This document shows, in pieces, positions 37,627-43,830 of a stretch of 64,000 bases of DNA. A program made the translations under genes and the position numbers. Origin of the DNA: Methanoculleus bourgensis MS2 (GTDB lineage Archaea; Halobacteriota; Methanomicrobia; Methanomicrobiales; Methanoculleaceae); assembly GCF_000304355.2 (NCBI RefSeq), contig NC_018227.2, forward strand, positions 1,364,001 to 1,428,000, written 5' to 3'. Position 1 is the first letter of the stretch; each line of letters begins with the position of its first letter. The notes beneath the pieces were generated by a model. That model had not been told where the DNA came from, ran no database searches, and was given only the letters and a program-made list of their open reading frames with translations.

Positions 37627-38300
37627 AGCCGGACCGGGTCAGCACGGGGAGTCCGCCCCTCGACGACCTCCTGGGCGGCGGGCTTGAACGGCGGGCGATC
37701 ACCCAGGTCTACGGCGAGCCTGCGAGCGGCAAGAGCACCCTCTGCCTGCTGGCGACGGTGGCAAGTCTCCGGTCCGGGAACTCGGTCGTCTACATCGATA
37801 CCGAGGGGTTCTCGGTGGAGCGGTTTATGCAGATCGCCGGGGAGCGTGCGGGGGAGTTTGCGGACCGGCTCTACCTCTGTGAGCCACTCGATTTCGCCCA
37901 GCAGGGGGCGATGATCGCTGATGCGGAGGAGCTGCTCCGGAAGAGCGACCGGGCCCCCGTGGGCCTGCTGGTGGTCGACTCGGCGACCGGTCTTTACCGG
38001 ACTGAACTTGGTCTTGGGCGGGAGACGGTGCGCAGCCTCTCGCACCATATGGTCAGACTCCTCGGGCTTGCGAAGAAGTACGATATCCCTGCCCTGATCA
38101 CCAACCAGATCTACGTGGACGTTGAGCGGGACCGGGTCTCGGGTCTCGGGGGGACGGCGCTTGAGCATATCTCAAAGGCCATCATCAGGCTTGAAAAGAG
38201 GGATAGTGTCCGGCGGGCGATGCTCCGGAAGCACCGGTCCCGGCCGGAGGGTATCTCGTTTGATTTTGTGATCACACAGGACGGGATCAGAAAGGTATAA
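37623..38300 (+). CDS. radB: DNA repair and recombination protein RadB
   Basis: 225-residue euryarchaeal RadA paralogue. Walker A is GEPASGKSTL near residue 32, and Walker B is GLLVVDSATGLYR. It lacks the N-terminal helix-hairpin-helix domain of RadA, as usual. The start is TTG at 37623, overlapping the larC stop (TTGA), which gives normal length; upstream codons in this frame belong to larC. RadB assists recombination and is a recombination mediator in haloarchaea. The 3' end overlaps convergent dapF by 14 bases. Confidence 0.92.
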   Translation: MKPDRVSTGSPPLDDLLGGGLERRAITQVYGEPASGKSTLCLLATVASLRSGNSVVYIDTEGFSVERFMQIAGERAGEFADRLYLCEPLDFAQQGAMIADAEELLRKSDRAPVGLLVVDSATGLYRTELGLGRETVRSLSHHMVRLLGLAKKYDIPALITNQIYVDVERDRVSGLGGTALEHISKAIIRLEKRDSVRRAMLRKHRSRPEGISFDFVITQDGIRKV

Positions 38301-39105
38301 CGCCCGCAAAGACCGTGCTGGCCGGGCCTTCCATGGTGACGGAATCCCCGAAGCGGATGATGAGCGGACCTCCTTTTGTCTCCACCCGCACCTCATCCCC
38401 AACGTTGCCGAGGTGGTGGGCGACGGCTGCCGACGCGGTGGCGCCGGTTCCGCAACTGAATGTCTCGGCCTCAACGCCGCGCTCGAATGTCCGGATCCTG
38501 ATGGTGTCGCCGTCTCCCTGCTCGACGAAGTTGACGTTCGCACCCTCAACGAAGGTGGGGTGGTTCCTGATGGCGGGGCCGACGGTGGTGATATCGACGG
38601 CGCCGATCTCTTTTGTGAAGACGACGGCGTGAGGGACGCCGGTGTTTACGGCATAGACGGTGAACCCCCGGATCTCCTGCTTGTATTCGCCGGTCCCGGT
38701 GGCGGGGATGGCGCTCCGCTCGAACGCGGGCGTCGGCATGGTGATGGTCGCGGTGAACTCGTCATCCGCATACCCCATCGTGACCGGGACGATCCCGGCC
38801 CCGGTCTCGACCGAGCAGGATTCTTTGACGTAGCCGGCGTCGTAGGCGTACTTCGCAAGACACCGGATGCCGTTCCCGCACATCGCGGCCTCGCTCTCAT
38901 CCGGCTGGAAGAGCCGCATCCTGATGTCGGCTTTCTCTGATGCCTGGAGGAAGAGGATGCCGTCGGCGCCGATGCCGAACCTGCGGTCGCAGTAGAGCGC
39001 AGCAAACGCTCCCTTCATATCTTCGGGGATGACTTCCCGGTCGTGCTCATCGATCAGGATGAAGTCGTTGCCGTTCCCCTGCAGTTTGGTAAACGCGATC
39101 TCCAT
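38287..39105 (-). CDS. dapF: Diaminopimelate epimerase
   Basis: 272-residue epimerase converting LL- to meso-diaminopimelate for lysine synthesis. The two catalytic cysteines are in AAMCGNGIRC and TFSCGTGATA. The N-terminal FTKLQGNGNDFILID motif is complete. The start at 39105 is clear. Archaea lack DAP-containing peptidoglycan, so the role is lysine biosynthesis, which in methanogens commonly uses DapL upstream. Confidence 0.96.
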   Translation of the reverse strand: MEIAFTKLQGNGNDFILIDEHDREVIPEDMKGAFAALYCDRRFGIGADGILFLQASEKADIRMRLFQPDESEAAMCGNGIRCLAKYAYDAGYVKESCSVETGAGIVPVTMGYADDEFTATITMPTPAFERSAIPATGTGEYKQEIRGFTVYAVNTGVPHAVVFTKEIGAVDITTVGPAIRNHPTFVEGANVNFVEQGDGDTIRIRTFERGVEAETFSCGTGATASAAVAHHLGNVGDEVRVETKGGPLIIRFGDSVTMEGPASTVFAGVIPF

Positions 39106-39198
39106 GGTGTAAGCCTCTCTGTCGTAGATATTTGGAGGTTGCGACTGATAAACCGTGGGGGTAGCGGCTGGTCGTCAGGGTACCTGATATGGCCCGGT

Positions 39199-39468
39199 AT
39201 GGAGCGATGTTCCGGAAGGACCTCCCTCTCGCCGGTGATCGAGAGGACCGCGGACGACCGCTACACAACCGTCATCTTCGTGGACGAGGGTATCGGTCCG
39301 CCCGGAGAACTGAGAGTCACCCTCAAACTGACAGCCGGGTGCGGCCTCTTCCACGGGATGGGGCAGGACACCTACCGGACGGAGGTGAGGGAGACGGTCC
39401 CCGCCGGAACCGGCGGGCGGATCGTCGTCGATGCGACGGTCGAGAAGTATCGGCCGCCCGGACCCTGA
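39199..39468 (+). CDS. Hypothetical protein, beta-rich, partly duplicated nearby
   Basis: 89-residue protein (MERCSGRTSLSPVIERTADD…) ending VDATVEKYRPPGP. It has alternating polar/apolar strands and no recognised domain. ATG 39199 gives the conserved part; the frame is open further upstream to 39043. Degraded pieces of its coding sequence and downstream flank occur at 40504-40615. The 3' flank also carries a relE remnant on the other strand. Confidence 0.5.
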   Translation: MERCSGRTSLSPVIERTADDRYTTVIFVDEGIGPPGELRVTLKLTAGCGLFHGMGQDTYRTEVRETVPAGTGGRIVVDATVEKYRPPGP

Positions 39469-39538
39469 AGGGTGAGATTTCTGGTTCTTGGAGGCGGCGT
39501 CGTTGAGCCTCTGGCGGGCACGGGCCACATAGTTATAT

Positions 39539-39625
39539 CGGGTGACATCCGGTCAGAACCCCCGGTACACCCTGCCCACGGGGCCTCTTCGGGTCGCCTT
39601 CACCGGATCAGGGAGTGTTCTCTCA
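39539..39625 (-). pseudogene. relE remnant
   Basis: Minus-strand sequence aligns with the intact relE at 40603-40863. CCTCTTCGGGTCG-CTTCACCGG (plus sense, about 39584-39606) matches the codons for LTGEADPKR, and TCAGAACCCCCGGTACACCCTG (39554-39575) matches the relE C-terminal region. About 125 bp between them is missing. In this copy the C-terminus would read VYRGF. Confidence 0.55.
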
Positions 39626-39681
39626 ACCTCCCCGGACATGGGCAGAGTGAACTCGGCCGCCGCTCTCGAAAGGTTAATCCG

Positions 39682-39715
39682 ATATTACAAGTATTATAGG
39701 TATTACAAGTAATAC
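39682..39715 (+). promoter_or_regulatory. Direct-repeat palindromic operator candidate
   Basis: GTATTACAAGTAATAC at 39700-39715 has 7-bp inverted arms. ATATTACAAGTATTAT at 39682-39697 is a near copy 18 bases upstream, and CAGATACGGATACTAC follows. The sequence is AT-rich and lies 31 bases before the ATG of the 47-residue gene. Two copies about 1.7 helical turns apart are typical of a dimeric repressor site. Confidence 0.4.
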
Positions 39716-39745
39716 AGATACGGATACTACAGGGAAGGGATCAAC

Positions 39746-39889
39746 ATGGTGTATGCGCCAGATAACCGGCACCAGAAGGAGAGGTCCAGGGAATCCATCC
39801 GCATGGGACTGACTCCGTTTGAGAAGCGCGCACTCGAGGCTTCCATCAAGAAGAACCGGAAAGCGCTGGAACTCTTAAGCCAGCACTGA
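39746..39889 (+). CDS. Small basic protein, 47 residues
   Basis: MVYAPDNRHQKERSRESIRM, then GLTPFEKRALEASIKKNRKA and LELLSQH. It is charged and probably helical, with no recognised family. GGGAAGGGA lies about 6-14 bases before the ATG, and paired palindromes lie upstream. The 3' end overlaps the convergent Doc-like gene by 15 bases. The antitoxin idea is attractive from size and place, but convergent orientation is unusual for a toxin/antitoxin pair. Confidence 0.5.
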   Translation: MVYAPDNRHQKERSRESIRMGLTPFEKRALEASIKKNRKALELLSQH

Positions 39890-40453
39890 ATAGATATCTA
39901 TCCTTTTTGTATTTGCGCGGATCCATTCTTCGACCTCGTCCGGGGTATACCTGCTGTTGCCGTCGTCGTCGAGGTCGGCCAGCGTGACCATGAACCGGTC
40001 CACCTCTTCTGCGTCTGCATCAAAAATGTACCCGTTTGCGCGCAGTATGAGTACGTCTGTGGCCGTATACGCGGTTCGCTTATTCCCCTGCCAGAACCCA
40101 TGTCCGTTTGTGACGACCTCAAGGAACCAGGCGGTCTTCCTGTAAATGTTCTCCTGACATACCCAGTAATTATTCCAGAGATAGACCCAGGTCTCGACAC
40201 AACCCGGATCCTTCAGCCCCTCCCACCCCCGATCTTCAGGCCGATCGTGTAACGCAATAAGGGTGTCGTGGATTGCGATAATCTTCTCTCCAGTGATATC
40301 ATTCACGAGCCAGCCGCACCGCGGACACCACCAACCGATCGGGATCTCAGCCCTGTGGCTGTCTTCATCTGTATCGCGGATGAAAGCCCGGATCATCCTG
40401 ACATCATCGCAATAAGGGCTTGGACAGTCGGGTGCGAGACGCAGCATGCTCAT
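39875..40453 (-). CDS. Doc-like Fic-fold protein with N-terminal zinc ribbon
   Basis: 192-residue protein. The C-terminal ~130 residues resemble Doc toxins: IIAIHDTLIAL, GLKDPGCVET, NIYRKTAWFLEVV, and the active-site segment GHGFWQGNKRTAYTA near residue 115. Doc usually has HxFxxxNKR, and His, Phe, Asn, Lys and Arg are all kept. The first ~50 residues contain C10-x4-C15 and C43-x2-C46, a likely zinc ribbon. Doc proteins phosphorylate elongation factor Tu; this fusion may differ in target. No Phd-like antitoxin is adjacent. Confidence 0.75.
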   Translation of the reverse strand: MSMLRLAPDCPSPYCDDVRMIRAFIRDTDEDSHRAEIPIGWWCPRCGWLVNDITGEKIIAIHDTLIALHDRPEDRGWEGLKDPGCVETWVYLWNNYWVCQENIYRKTAWFLEVVTNGHGFWQGNKRTAYTATDVLILRANGYIFDADAEEVDRFMVTLADLDDDGNSRYTPDEVEEWIRANTKRIDIYSVLA

Positions 40454-40503
40454 CAGATCCTATTGAAAATGGCAACGCCCGAATAGATGAATTTAATCCC
40501 TAG

Positions 40504-40615
40504 TGGGCTTCGTGGACAAGAGTATCGGCCCGCCAGGAGAACCGATGGCCGCCCGGACCCTGAAGGGGGTAGACGGTGTCCTAGGCGATGTCAGAACCCC
40601 CGCTACACCCTGCTC
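40504..40615 (+). pseudogene. Degraded duplicate of the 39199-39575 region
   Basis: Three short blocks match the 89-residue gene and its flank in the same order. TTCGTGGACAAGAGTATCGG (from 40508) matches about 39275. GGCCGCCCGGACCCTGAAGGG (about 40546) matches about 39452. TCAGAACCCCCGCTACACCCTG (40591-40612) matches 39554. The parts between have been deleted. The last block includes the relE stop codon. Confidence 0.6.
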
Positions 40616-40863
40616 CGGTGGCCGACCGCGACGACATGGATCACCAGGAGGTCGTCGATGACCGAGAGGATTGTCCGGTAATCCCCGACCCTGAGGGAGT
40701 AGAACGCGGGGTTGTCTGACCCTTTCAGTTTTTTGAGATGCCTCTTCGGGTCGGCCTCACCGGTGAGTGTTGCGAGTTCCTCGCCTATCTGTAATGCTAT
40801 GGGTCGTGGAATGCTCTTGAGGGTATGACGGGCTGTCGCGGTGATGACCACGCGGTAGGTCAT
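40603..40863 (-). CDS. relE: RelE/ParE-family toxin
   Basis: 86-residue RelE-superfamily toxin (VVITATARHTLKSIPRPI…, LKKLKGSDNPAFYSLRVGDYRTIL). RelE proteins cut mRNA at the ribosome. It begins inside the end of its antitoxin gene (ATGA overlap at 40860-40863). The C-terminus (GHRSRV) is a few residues shorter than implied by the remnant copy at 39.55 kb because of a TAG. Confidence 0.88.
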   Translation of the reverse strand: MTYRVVITATARHTLKSIPRPIALQIGEELATLTGEADPKRHLKKLKGSDNPAFYSLRVGDYRTILSVIDDLLVIHVVAVGHRSRV

Positions 40864-41093
40864 TCCTCCTTCAGCTCCGCCATGACCTCATCCAGAGTGT
40901 AGACCCTTCCGGCCTTAAGATCCTCAAGCGACCGCTCGAGGTCCCGGATCGTCTCTTGACTGAGCGGCTCCTCGTCGACCGCCATAGCCACCAGGCGCTC
41001 GATCACATCGTTGTAGGACTCCCGGGGATGGAGCTTCAGGGTGTTGAGCCGATCCTTGAGTTCGGTATCGATCTTGATGGTGGTGCTGGCCAT
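40860..41093 (-). CDS. RelB-like antitoxin, ribbon-helix-helix type
   Basis: 77-residue protein starting ASTTIKIDTELKDRLNTLK, a ribbon-helix-helix DNA-binding segment, followed by an acidic tail (DEVMAELKEE) that would wrap the toxin. It is directly upstream of and overlapping relE. Such antitoxins neutralise the toxin and repress their own operon. The promoter should lie in 41094-41130. Confidence 0.85.
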   Translation of the reverse strand: MASTTIKIDTELKDRLNTLKLHPRESYNDVIERLVAMAVDEEPLSQETIRDLERSLEDLKAGRVYTLDEVMAELKEE

Positions 41094-41619
41094 ACTGAGG
41101 TATACTCTGGTTTACCTGATGAAGGTTTTGTATGATACCCGGGTGGATGCTGTGGGGCACCGACCTGTTCCGTGAGAGGTCCAAACCCGGCGTACACGCG
41201 TCATTTCAGGAGCCGCCCGGAGGCTCACGATTATCCCCGGGTTTGGAGTGTCGGGAGCTGTGCGGGATTCTGGACGGAGTCTGTCCTTGAGCCCACGGGC
41301 GTAGGGGTGAGGCTCATTTTCCATTGGAAATCTGCAATGCCACCATCAAATGGGGCAAATCACTACGATTCGACGAGACCGGTGATTCCAGTCCGCCGAT
41401 GGCAATTCAACGCGATGGCCAGAAAGGTTATGGGGAGGAACGTTGAAGTCTCGATTGGAGATATCACATTTGATAGCCCATGGAAGCCGGAGACTTCGAT
41501 CGGTTTCGTTTCCCGGCTCCAGATCATACCAGGGGGCTGCCGGAGTGAGATTTTGCCATCAGCGATAGCCCCTGCGGCTCCCCGGCCTCCCGGGATACGT
41601 GAACGAAGGTGAGAAGATC
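41094..41619. other. Gap without a firmly supported gene
   Basis: The 526 bp between the antitoxin and the secreted protein contain a plus-strand frame, 41325-41612, with moderately gene-like composition (…RKVMGRNVEVSIGDITFDSP…). It has no recognised domain or clear ribosome site, and it would run into the next gene. I leave it uncalled; it could be a decayed coding region. Confidence 0.3.
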
Positions 41620-42078
41620 ATGAAACAGAAAAATAGGTCAGGATTATGTGCCGCCGCCCTTGTCGGCCTGCTCCTTGTCTGCGCGGCGGCTGCCCCGGTC
41701 GGCGCGGAGGAAACCCTGCAACTTCTCGGGGGCACTCTCCTGATCGACGAGACTAAGGGCACCGACTGCTGCTCCGCGACGGGTGCTCATAGCAAATGCC
41801 TCATGTATACCCCGGGGACAACCTACCGGGTCGTCGTGCTCTGCGAATACAAGGACGGCAACGATGCAATCGGACAGACGGCCCAATTCAGGCTGGAGGG
41901 GCCGGACGGCACCGTGGATACCAAATCCATATGGGACATCCCTATCTTCAACAACGACTGGAAGGGAAGGTTGACGGTGGATTTCACGCCCGACGGTCCC
42001 GGTACATACTACTGGGAGCTCACGTGCAGTGAAGGCGCTCACAGCGCATCGGCGCGCGGAAGCATTGAACTCCGGTAG
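41620..42078 (+). CDS. Small secreted protein of unknown function
   Basis: 152-residue protein from ATG 41620, with GGTGAG six bases upstream. A signal peptide (CAAALVGLLLVCAAAAPVGA) is followed by a beta-rich domain of ~125 residues with Cys pairs DCCSATGAHSKC and ELTCSEG. FRLEGPDGTVDT and FTPDGPGTYYWELTC recall immunoglobulin-like or copper-binding extracellular folds. No anchor is visible, so it would be released or bound loosely outside the cell. Confidence 0.8.
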   Translation: MKQKNRSGLCAAALVGLLLVCAAAAPVGAEETLQLLGGTLLIDETKGTDCCSATGAHSKCLMYTPGTTYRVVVLCEYKDGNDAIGQTAQFRLEGPDGTVDTKSIWDIPIFNNDWKGRLTVDFTPDGPGTYYWELTCSEGAHSASARGSIELR

Positions 42079-42253
42079 GGATTATCCAGATGGCGGCATC
42101 TCCCTCCCTCCATCCAATTCATTGGAGTCTCAGGTCCATATCGCGTGGCGATACCTCTGCCGACCTGTGCCGGTGAAGCGGACCCAGCTGGACGGCGGCC
42201 CGCGGTGCGGCGTTCGGCATTACCCGGAGTTGGAACGGATCCCCACCCCTACA

Positions 42254-43339: not shown

Positions 43340-43830
43340 GGTTCAGAAATTACAGCGAGCACACTCTTCGCGTGTTCACGCACCCGGTAAATCGCCCGGG
43401 TCCGCTATACCGGGTGGGAAAACGGCTCTGTTGAACCCCTGTTCCGGTCTTTCCCTGCCCCGATGAGGGGGGTGCTGGAGCCGGCTTGTCCCCGGCAGTG
43501 GACCGTGGTGGCCATCGTCCTTGGGGGTGGCGGCTCGCGGGGAGGGGGGAGCATCCCCCACCCCGCCCGCGCATTCGGAGCTCCTCCCCCGCCCCCGCAG
43601 GAAGGGGGCAGTGCGTGGGGATAGCCGGGGGAAAGCCATGTCCGGGGCTGGGAGAGAGGAACAGGGTTGACCGATTCCGCCAGATACCAGAACTCTTAGA
43701 AGCGAGGACAGTGTCCCGATGCAGTGGACCGTGGCGACTATCGCATCCGGGGGAGGGGGGCGGGCTCCCCTCCCCGCAAGGGGTAGGAGCAGTGCGTTGC
43801 GAAGAGCCGGTGGAAAGCCGTGTCCCATGA
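43340..43830. repeat. GC-rich intergenic repeats in the methyltransferase/aIF2-beta gap
   Basis: The 789-bp gap 43196-43984 has no supported gene. GCAGTGGACCGTGG occurs near 43494 and again near 43719; each begins a block ending near a GGGGGAAAGCC / GGTGGAAAGCC and GTGTCC motif. These are inverted copies of the 28.7-29.0 kb family. CTTCGCGTGTTCACG near 43366 is a trace of the TTCGCG family. GGGTTCAACAAAGCCG-like motifs recur at 43854 and 43964. Confidence 0.55.

Follow-up and report, generated by a model that had tools for sequence, protein, structure and literature searches.

The stretch of 64,000 nucleotides from Methanoculleus bourgensis MS2 analyzed here (the window, positions G000:C1:1364001-1428000, where G000 is the window genome, a single contig of 2,789,774 bp) carries beside dapF two copies of a relE toxin gene and, between them, a gene for a Doc-type toxin that is faced by a gene of 47 codons, p47. 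The site near dapF is a place of toxin-antitoxin (TA) module turnover, where modules replace one another, and the p47-Doc pair is intact here and occurs widely among related archaea. We consider it fairly probable that at this turnover site the relE duplication came with the p47-Doc module, that relBE is decaying, and that p47 is the antitoxin of Doc. The duplication is an ordinary decaying TA copy, yet the single-copy, duplicated, and decayed states are unusually clear at one site. The convergent p47-Doc pair between the copies matters more than the duplication.

The relE duplication and its single-copy state

The initial annotation had described 39199-39625 and 40504-40863 as copies of one segment with matching blocks in the same order. 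Direct repeats between the two loci are indeed collinear, also by BLAST self-comparison: 39276-39313 corresponds to 40508-40545 (87%, E 1e-6), 39452-39472 to 40547-40567 (21/21), 39552-39575 to 40590-40613 (96%), and 39583-39606 to 40740-40763 (92%). The chained alignment of the two loci scores 163.6, a value that was reached by 0 of 1000 dinucleotide-preserving shuffled pairs (maximum 123.9) and by none of 942 segment pairs drawn at random from the window (maximum 137.3). The similarity is thus beyond that of shuffled sequence.

Copy 1 of relE is a remnant (relE', 39552..39606, minus strand) in which two relE blocks are left on either side of an internal deletion, and decayed homology of this region with the copy-1 junction of a related genome, G001, extends to approximately 39660. 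Copy 2 (40603..40863, minus strand) belongs to the ParE/RelE superfamily (PF05016, 8.9e-10; 39.5 bits against a cut-off of 23). It is followed on the map by a relB-type antitoxin gene (DUF7557; 40860..41093, minus strand; PF24434, 3e-15), in which 227 of 234 nt are identical to the genome G024. The left anchor of the site is dapF, coding for diaminopimelate epimerase (38287..39105, minus strand; TIGR00652 DapF, 4.5e-80; Pfam DAP_epimerase), which is 89% identical to G001 and 77% to G024.

Related genomes provide the single-copy state that the initial annotation had suggested looking for. At the same site G013 has the order ribose-1,5-bisphosphate (R15P) isomerase-relB-relE-dapF, and a single-copy unit stands elsewhere in G024 as membrane-gene fragment-relE-relB. 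The layout of G001, dapF-relE'-p47-Doc-relE-relB, is that of the window, and the duplicated part of relE measures 227 bp. Two matches define this length: G013 L061 1694-2255 (relB-relE) matches copy 2 in G001 L066, and G013 L061 2029-3286 (relE-dapF) matches G001 from copy 1 through dapF. The 227-bp overlap of the two matches is the duplicated stretch. The middle of the dapF-relE spacer is poorly alignable between G013 and G001.

The sequences of G000 and G001 align across the relE'-p47 junction, which is common to both, and in both genomes relE copy 1 ends near codon 17 with no relB beside it. The duplication is real, and we conclude that it is older than the split between the G000 and G001 species; the truncation of copy 1 probably dates from the duplication itself. 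Synonymous divergence (dS) between G000 and G001 is 0.42 for Doc and 0.42 for dapF; from this equality we take the Doc module and the site to have descended together. Duplication followed by complementary loss, as first proposed, therefore stands in its first part, for which the single copies of G013 and G024 and the layout of G001 speak. Complementary loss from two intact copies is not supported, as copy 1 is cut near codon 17 and lacks relB, the 89-codon gene is fragmentary twice, and relE is shortened.

Module turnover and decay of relBE

The interval from dapF to the R15P isomerase gene is a variable region in many relatives. Modules beside the 3' end of the isomerase gene, which exceeds the TIGR00511 cut-off, were tallied among 40 annotated loci. 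Intact relBE adjoins it in 8 loci (G012, G022, G049, G013, G011, G051, G006, and G004, where relE is cut by the contig end), decayed relBE in three (G005, G017, G016), p47-Doc in three (G046, G014, G023, with the p47 of G014 lost to the contig end), and HicAB, both of whose proteins exceed their Pfam cut-offs, in two (G000 at 1.646 Mb and G010). The remaining loci have no such module beside the isomerase gene, or no isomerase gene. The distance from dapF to the R15P isomerase gene is 0.7-20 kb in many relatives and approximately 243 kb in G000 (38287-39105 versus G000:C1:1646078), a gap that suggests rearrangement within this variable interval in G000.

The relE copy taken as intact in the initial annotation stops four codons short of its relatives. 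It ends in HRSRV (86 aa), and 16 of the 17 relatives with the C-terminus present continue with [YH]R[GRK][FY], G027 being the exception. In E. coli RelE, a tyrosine at this end is catalytic. As the locus 1 remnant does not have the early stop, the shortening is confined to copy 2. Over 227 bp, copy 2 is 97% identical to G024, and the two relE genes differ by 2 synonymous and 5 non-synonymous changes (ratio of non-synonymous to synonymous rates, dN/dS, 0.87), which may point, if weakly, to relaxed selection on the window gene. In G001, relE copy 2 and relB are frameshifted and relE copy 1 begins at codon 17. The PF05016 (ParE_toxin) and DUF7557 genes of the window, which overlap by 4 nt, are like a type II RelBE/ParDE system; they differ from it in being partly duplicated and shortened, and the pair is probably non-functional. 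relBE is decaying while Doc stays under purifying selection.

The convergent p47-Doc pair

The Doc/Fic protein of the window (39875..40453, minus strand; 192 aa) matches TIGR01550 DOC_P1 with 56.1 bits against a cut-off of 38.65 and PF02661 with 26.0 against 24. Its motif, HGFWQGNKR, keeps the H, F, N, K, and R of the Doc motif HxFx[D/E][A/G]N[G/K]R given in the text of PMC11065993, with Gln replacing the acidic residue; the family assignment rests on the profiles. Gln stands at the same position in most Docs partnered by p47-like genes. A dN/dS of 0.12 to both G001 and G046 indicates that Doc is under purifying selection. Docs of Methanoculleus have an N-terminal extension with CPSPYC and CPRC (within 39875-40453 in the window) that looks zinc-ribbon-like by eye, and G025 (L125) has an isolated segment that matches aa 1-56 of it at 48%. 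Assignment to a defense system by PADLOC was discarded, as the Doc matches were weak (best 1e-3), and so was a plasmid origin of the window Doc, for which 6 plasmid records matched, all at <60% identity and none covering 80% of the query.

Facing Doc, p47 (39746..39889, plus strand) encodes a 47-aa helical protein, a candidate Doc antitoxin, and its 3' end overlaps that of Doc by 15 nt. AlphaFold2 run on p47 alone predicts helices at residues 8-20 and 24-46, with a mean predicted local distance difference test score of 82 and values of about 90 and above in the second helix. No p47 family match was found in Pfam, PADLOC, or NCBIfam. The p47-like proteins are short and end in a conserved helix, GLxxxExxALExSIxxHxxALxLLxxH. 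Upstream of p47 lie A+T-rich repeats (39676..39725; direct repeat family D3) with the perfect inverted repeat GTATTAC-AA-GTAATAC. A palindrome stands upstream of p47 in the window and in G001, and none was seen upstream of the G046 copy of p47, so we put forward an operator only as a suggestion.

The initial annotation had rightly placed the 47-residue and Doc-like genes between the relE copies; their presence there is not incidental, as they form a conserved tail-to-tail pair. A search for Doc in 199 genomes of the order (E <= 1e-10) gave 27 places in 26 genomes. At 25 of these places a p47-like gene runs on the other strand, tail to tail at the stop codon of Doc; of the remaining two, one is at a contig end (G014) and one is a fragment of Doc (G025). 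The p47 profile used, A2, consists of 18 rows from loci of this analysis (L090, L091, L093, L096, L112, and L115 entered minus the N-terminal part), and its own rows match by construction: 15 of the 25 positive places are in genomes with an A2 row and 10 in genomes without. Between p47 and Doc, the 3' ends lie up to 11 nt apart or overlap by up to 24 nt. TIGR01550 finds an additional Doc of the order, in G027, with no p47-like gene facing it. In a mixed Methanomicrobiales list of Doc-found and p47-found loci, 32 of 34 are convergent; because of this mixing, 25 of 27 is the fair count.

Searching 392 genomes of the phylum with the p47 profile gave 27 p47-like places in 23 genomes, 20 facing a Doc (split in G031 and G024) and 7 not. 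TIGR01550 matches 94 of the 392 genomes, and outside the order a p47-like match was found at 2 of 30 Doc loci, one of them weak. At three loci (L097, L118, L119) in other genomes of the order Methanomicrobiales or of Methanoculleus, a gene for an SDH-type (ClpP-like) serine protease (PF01972) lies directly upstream of the p47-like gene that faces Doc; the protease is possibly a third component.

A convergent arrangement has a precedent in other archaea. According to the text of PMC11065993 (2024), Doc genes of Sulfolobales are paired convergently with genes for small arCOG10132 proteins, and in S. islandicus SiL_0730 relieves the toxicity of SiL_0731 and the two proteins bind, as seen by transformation and pull-down; methanogens and Euryarchaeota are not mentioned in its main text. 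Our pair resembles the Sulfolobales one in that an archaeal gene for a Doc/Fic toxin is faced by a convergent small gene, the product of which was shown by experiment to be the antitoxin in Sulfolobales; it differs in that p47 is shorter and has its own conserved C-terminal helix. Given that validated pair, p47 is by analogy probably the antitoxin of Doc. Most likely Doc is a Doc/Fic-type toxin acting by modification of a protein target, and p47 a protein antitoxin that would use its C-terminal helix to block the active site of Doc, both activities being proposed from the family and the Sulfolobales pair.

In the Phd-Doc operon the partner gene is upstream of Doc. The window Doc is related to Doc of phage P1 (PDB 3k33, 3dd7, 3kh2; phmmer E 2.6e-5 to 3k33), but its partner gene is convergent rather than upstream in an operon, and it has Gln for the acidic motif residue and a cysteine-bearing N-terminal extension. 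Partners of Fic/Doc proteins are given as AbrB/MazE, PHD, and YhfG in PMC2701414, in whose main text the word 'convergent' is absent. The literature searched, which lacked most subscription papers, gave no account of p47-like proteins accompanying a Methanomicrobiales Doc.

It is also conceivable, although unlikely, that p47 is a separate small protein, e.g., the toxin of the pair, or a Doc substrate or regulator, kept near Doc for another reason. The convergent, non-operonic gene order would suit such a protein, as would the p47-like genes downstream of the SDH-type protease gene in three loci and the p47-like places without an adjacent Doc. However, p47 occurs as an orphan and Doc hardly ever does, as would be expected if p47 were an antitoxin; few Docs of the set have a small gene directly upstream, and the Sulfolobales precedent points the same way. 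Whether Docs of Methanomicrobiales in general are neutralized by a new, p47-like antitoxin family, almost always tail to tail with stop codons abutting or overlapping, we regard as an evenly balanced matter; this would be a second, possibly independent, convergent archaeal Doc system, mostly with the motif HxFxQGNKR. If Doc has a tail-to-tail partner throughout one archaeal order, this would give a name and a testable function to a family of unannotated small genes, and it raises the question of why archaeal Doc systems abandon the usual antitoxin-first operon.

Debris of a membrane-protein gene beside both relE copies

The 89-codon open reading frame (ORF) at locus 1 (39199..39468, plus strand), initially reported as an intact gene, is debris. 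It consists of about 10 codons of dapF leader and the C-terminal ~75 codons of a membrane-protein family of ~263 aa. A full-length relative is the 263-codon gene G010 L007:2072-2863, with hydrophobic N-terminal stretches; the window ORF spans residues ~188-263 of it and does not reach the full family length. Homology between the G021 dapF leader and the window runs to ~39230, so that the start codon and first codons of the ORF are leader sequence. Paralogues of the membrane-protein gene at 30-39% identity are common in the genus. Remnants of the same gene, recognized by repeats and BLAST, precede relE copy 2 (40508..40567, plus strand), and the gene is debris in both window copies. Between the copy-1 fragment and relE', 39473-39551 is ~57 bases longer than the G024 spacer, and the extra piece has no other match in 35 genomes of the genus.

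Compared with G010, the 89-codon ORF has 21.5 synonymous and 12.5 non-synonymous differences (dN/dS 0.16). As the ORF still shows a constrained pattern against G010, we read the low value as suggesting that the truncation is recent, and not as a sign of a working fragment. The window fragment and G024, compared over 74 codons, show 11 synonymous-codon and 9 non-synonymous-codon differences. The gene has a different truncation in G024, where it is fused to an antisense isomerase piece; at this fusion point there is a short shared stretch, GAAGGCCGG.

Origin of the present arrangement

The order of events that we favor would start from the state seen in G013, with a single relBE operon flanked by dapF and the R15P isomerase gene. 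The p47-Doc module would have settled there together with, or beside, a second relE-relB copy, and the join would have truncated the relE nearer to dapF around codon 17, so that the same 227 bp of relE came to flank p47-Doc on either side. A single step would be enough for this, a homologous crossover on the side of relB combined with an illegitimate join within relE on the side of dapF. The window lineage, once separate from that of G001, would then have lost the greater part of relE copy 1 and four codons of the remaining relE, with membrane-gene fragments now before both copies, while the p47-Doc pair would have been kept under purifying selection.

Several observations weigh against this account. 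In a relE tree built with one copy per genome (two for G001) from matches of at least 150 bp only, the G001 copies, which are 92% alike, group with each other (95/88) and not by position, and the window copy groups with G024 (100/99). Over 50 positions, the copy-1 remnant agrees with window copy 2 at 46, with G024 at 46, with G001 copy 1 at 44, and with G001 copy 2 at 40. Because the G001 copies group together and the remnant comes nearest to window copy 2 and G024, either gene conversion (homogenization) or independent events have to be assumed. The membrane-gene fragments precede both window copies and neither copy in G001 or G013, for which there is no simple explanation, and the G001 frameshifts may be draft errors. 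With regard to the pair, Gln in place of Asp/Glu makes Doc activity uncertain by motif, and p47 appears to be weakly constrained (dN/dS 0.32 to G001 and 0.58-0.64 to G023 and G046). The p47 profile found no match at E <= 10 in SMV1 gp44, a viral homologue of the Sulfolobales antitoxin (taken as the 44th coding sequence of HG322870, CDF81371, a numbering that we infer); with no match to the one arCOG10132 member compared, p47 is not filed as a member of that group.

The membrane-gene fragments before both window relE copies and the contiguous single unit of G024 would agree with a tandem duplication of the whole membrane gene-relE-relB unit, followed by p47-Doc insertion and complementary loss. 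We find this improbable, as no trace of relB remains at copy 1 in the window or G001, copy 1 ends at the same point next to p47 in both, the membrane gene is absent there in G001 and G013, and neither the 89-codon gene nor relE is intact in the window.

Another possibility is that relBE and a membrane-gene fragment were swapped with a donor close to the one behind the G024 locus, and that the two loci differ in origin and are not duplicates. Horizontal transfer was at work, since 40552-41461 is 94.5% identical to G024 while dapF is 77% identical, and since the HicAB of G024 is identical at 426 of 427 positions to that of G000 at 1.646 Mb, another locus. Nevertheless, the G024 locus has a foreign-looking R15P isomerase fragment and a window-like HicAB, so that the simpler reading is one in which the G024 lineage received a window-like island. 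In addition, the copy-1 and copy-2 membrane-gene fragments of the window share GGCCGCCCGGACCC against G024, as read in the sequence. We therefore hold different origins of the two loci to be doubtful, and prefer a duplication that arose with p47-Doc. The G024 island (L006:1796-3763), with the window-like HicAB, fragments of the isomerase and membrane genes, and relBE, has apparently been transferred into this distant Methanoculleus species.

Neighboring sequence

The horizontally shared block ends in a non-coding-looking stretch (41094..41461) with 343 of 368 nt common to G024. No known RNA element was found in 38200-42200 (0 Rfam matches). A gene for a secreted-type protein and its upstream stretch (41399-42115) recur in relatives, e.g., in G007 beside the isomerase gene (87%). 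Downstream of the site, a short direct repeat links 43605-43643 and 43786-43825 (82%).

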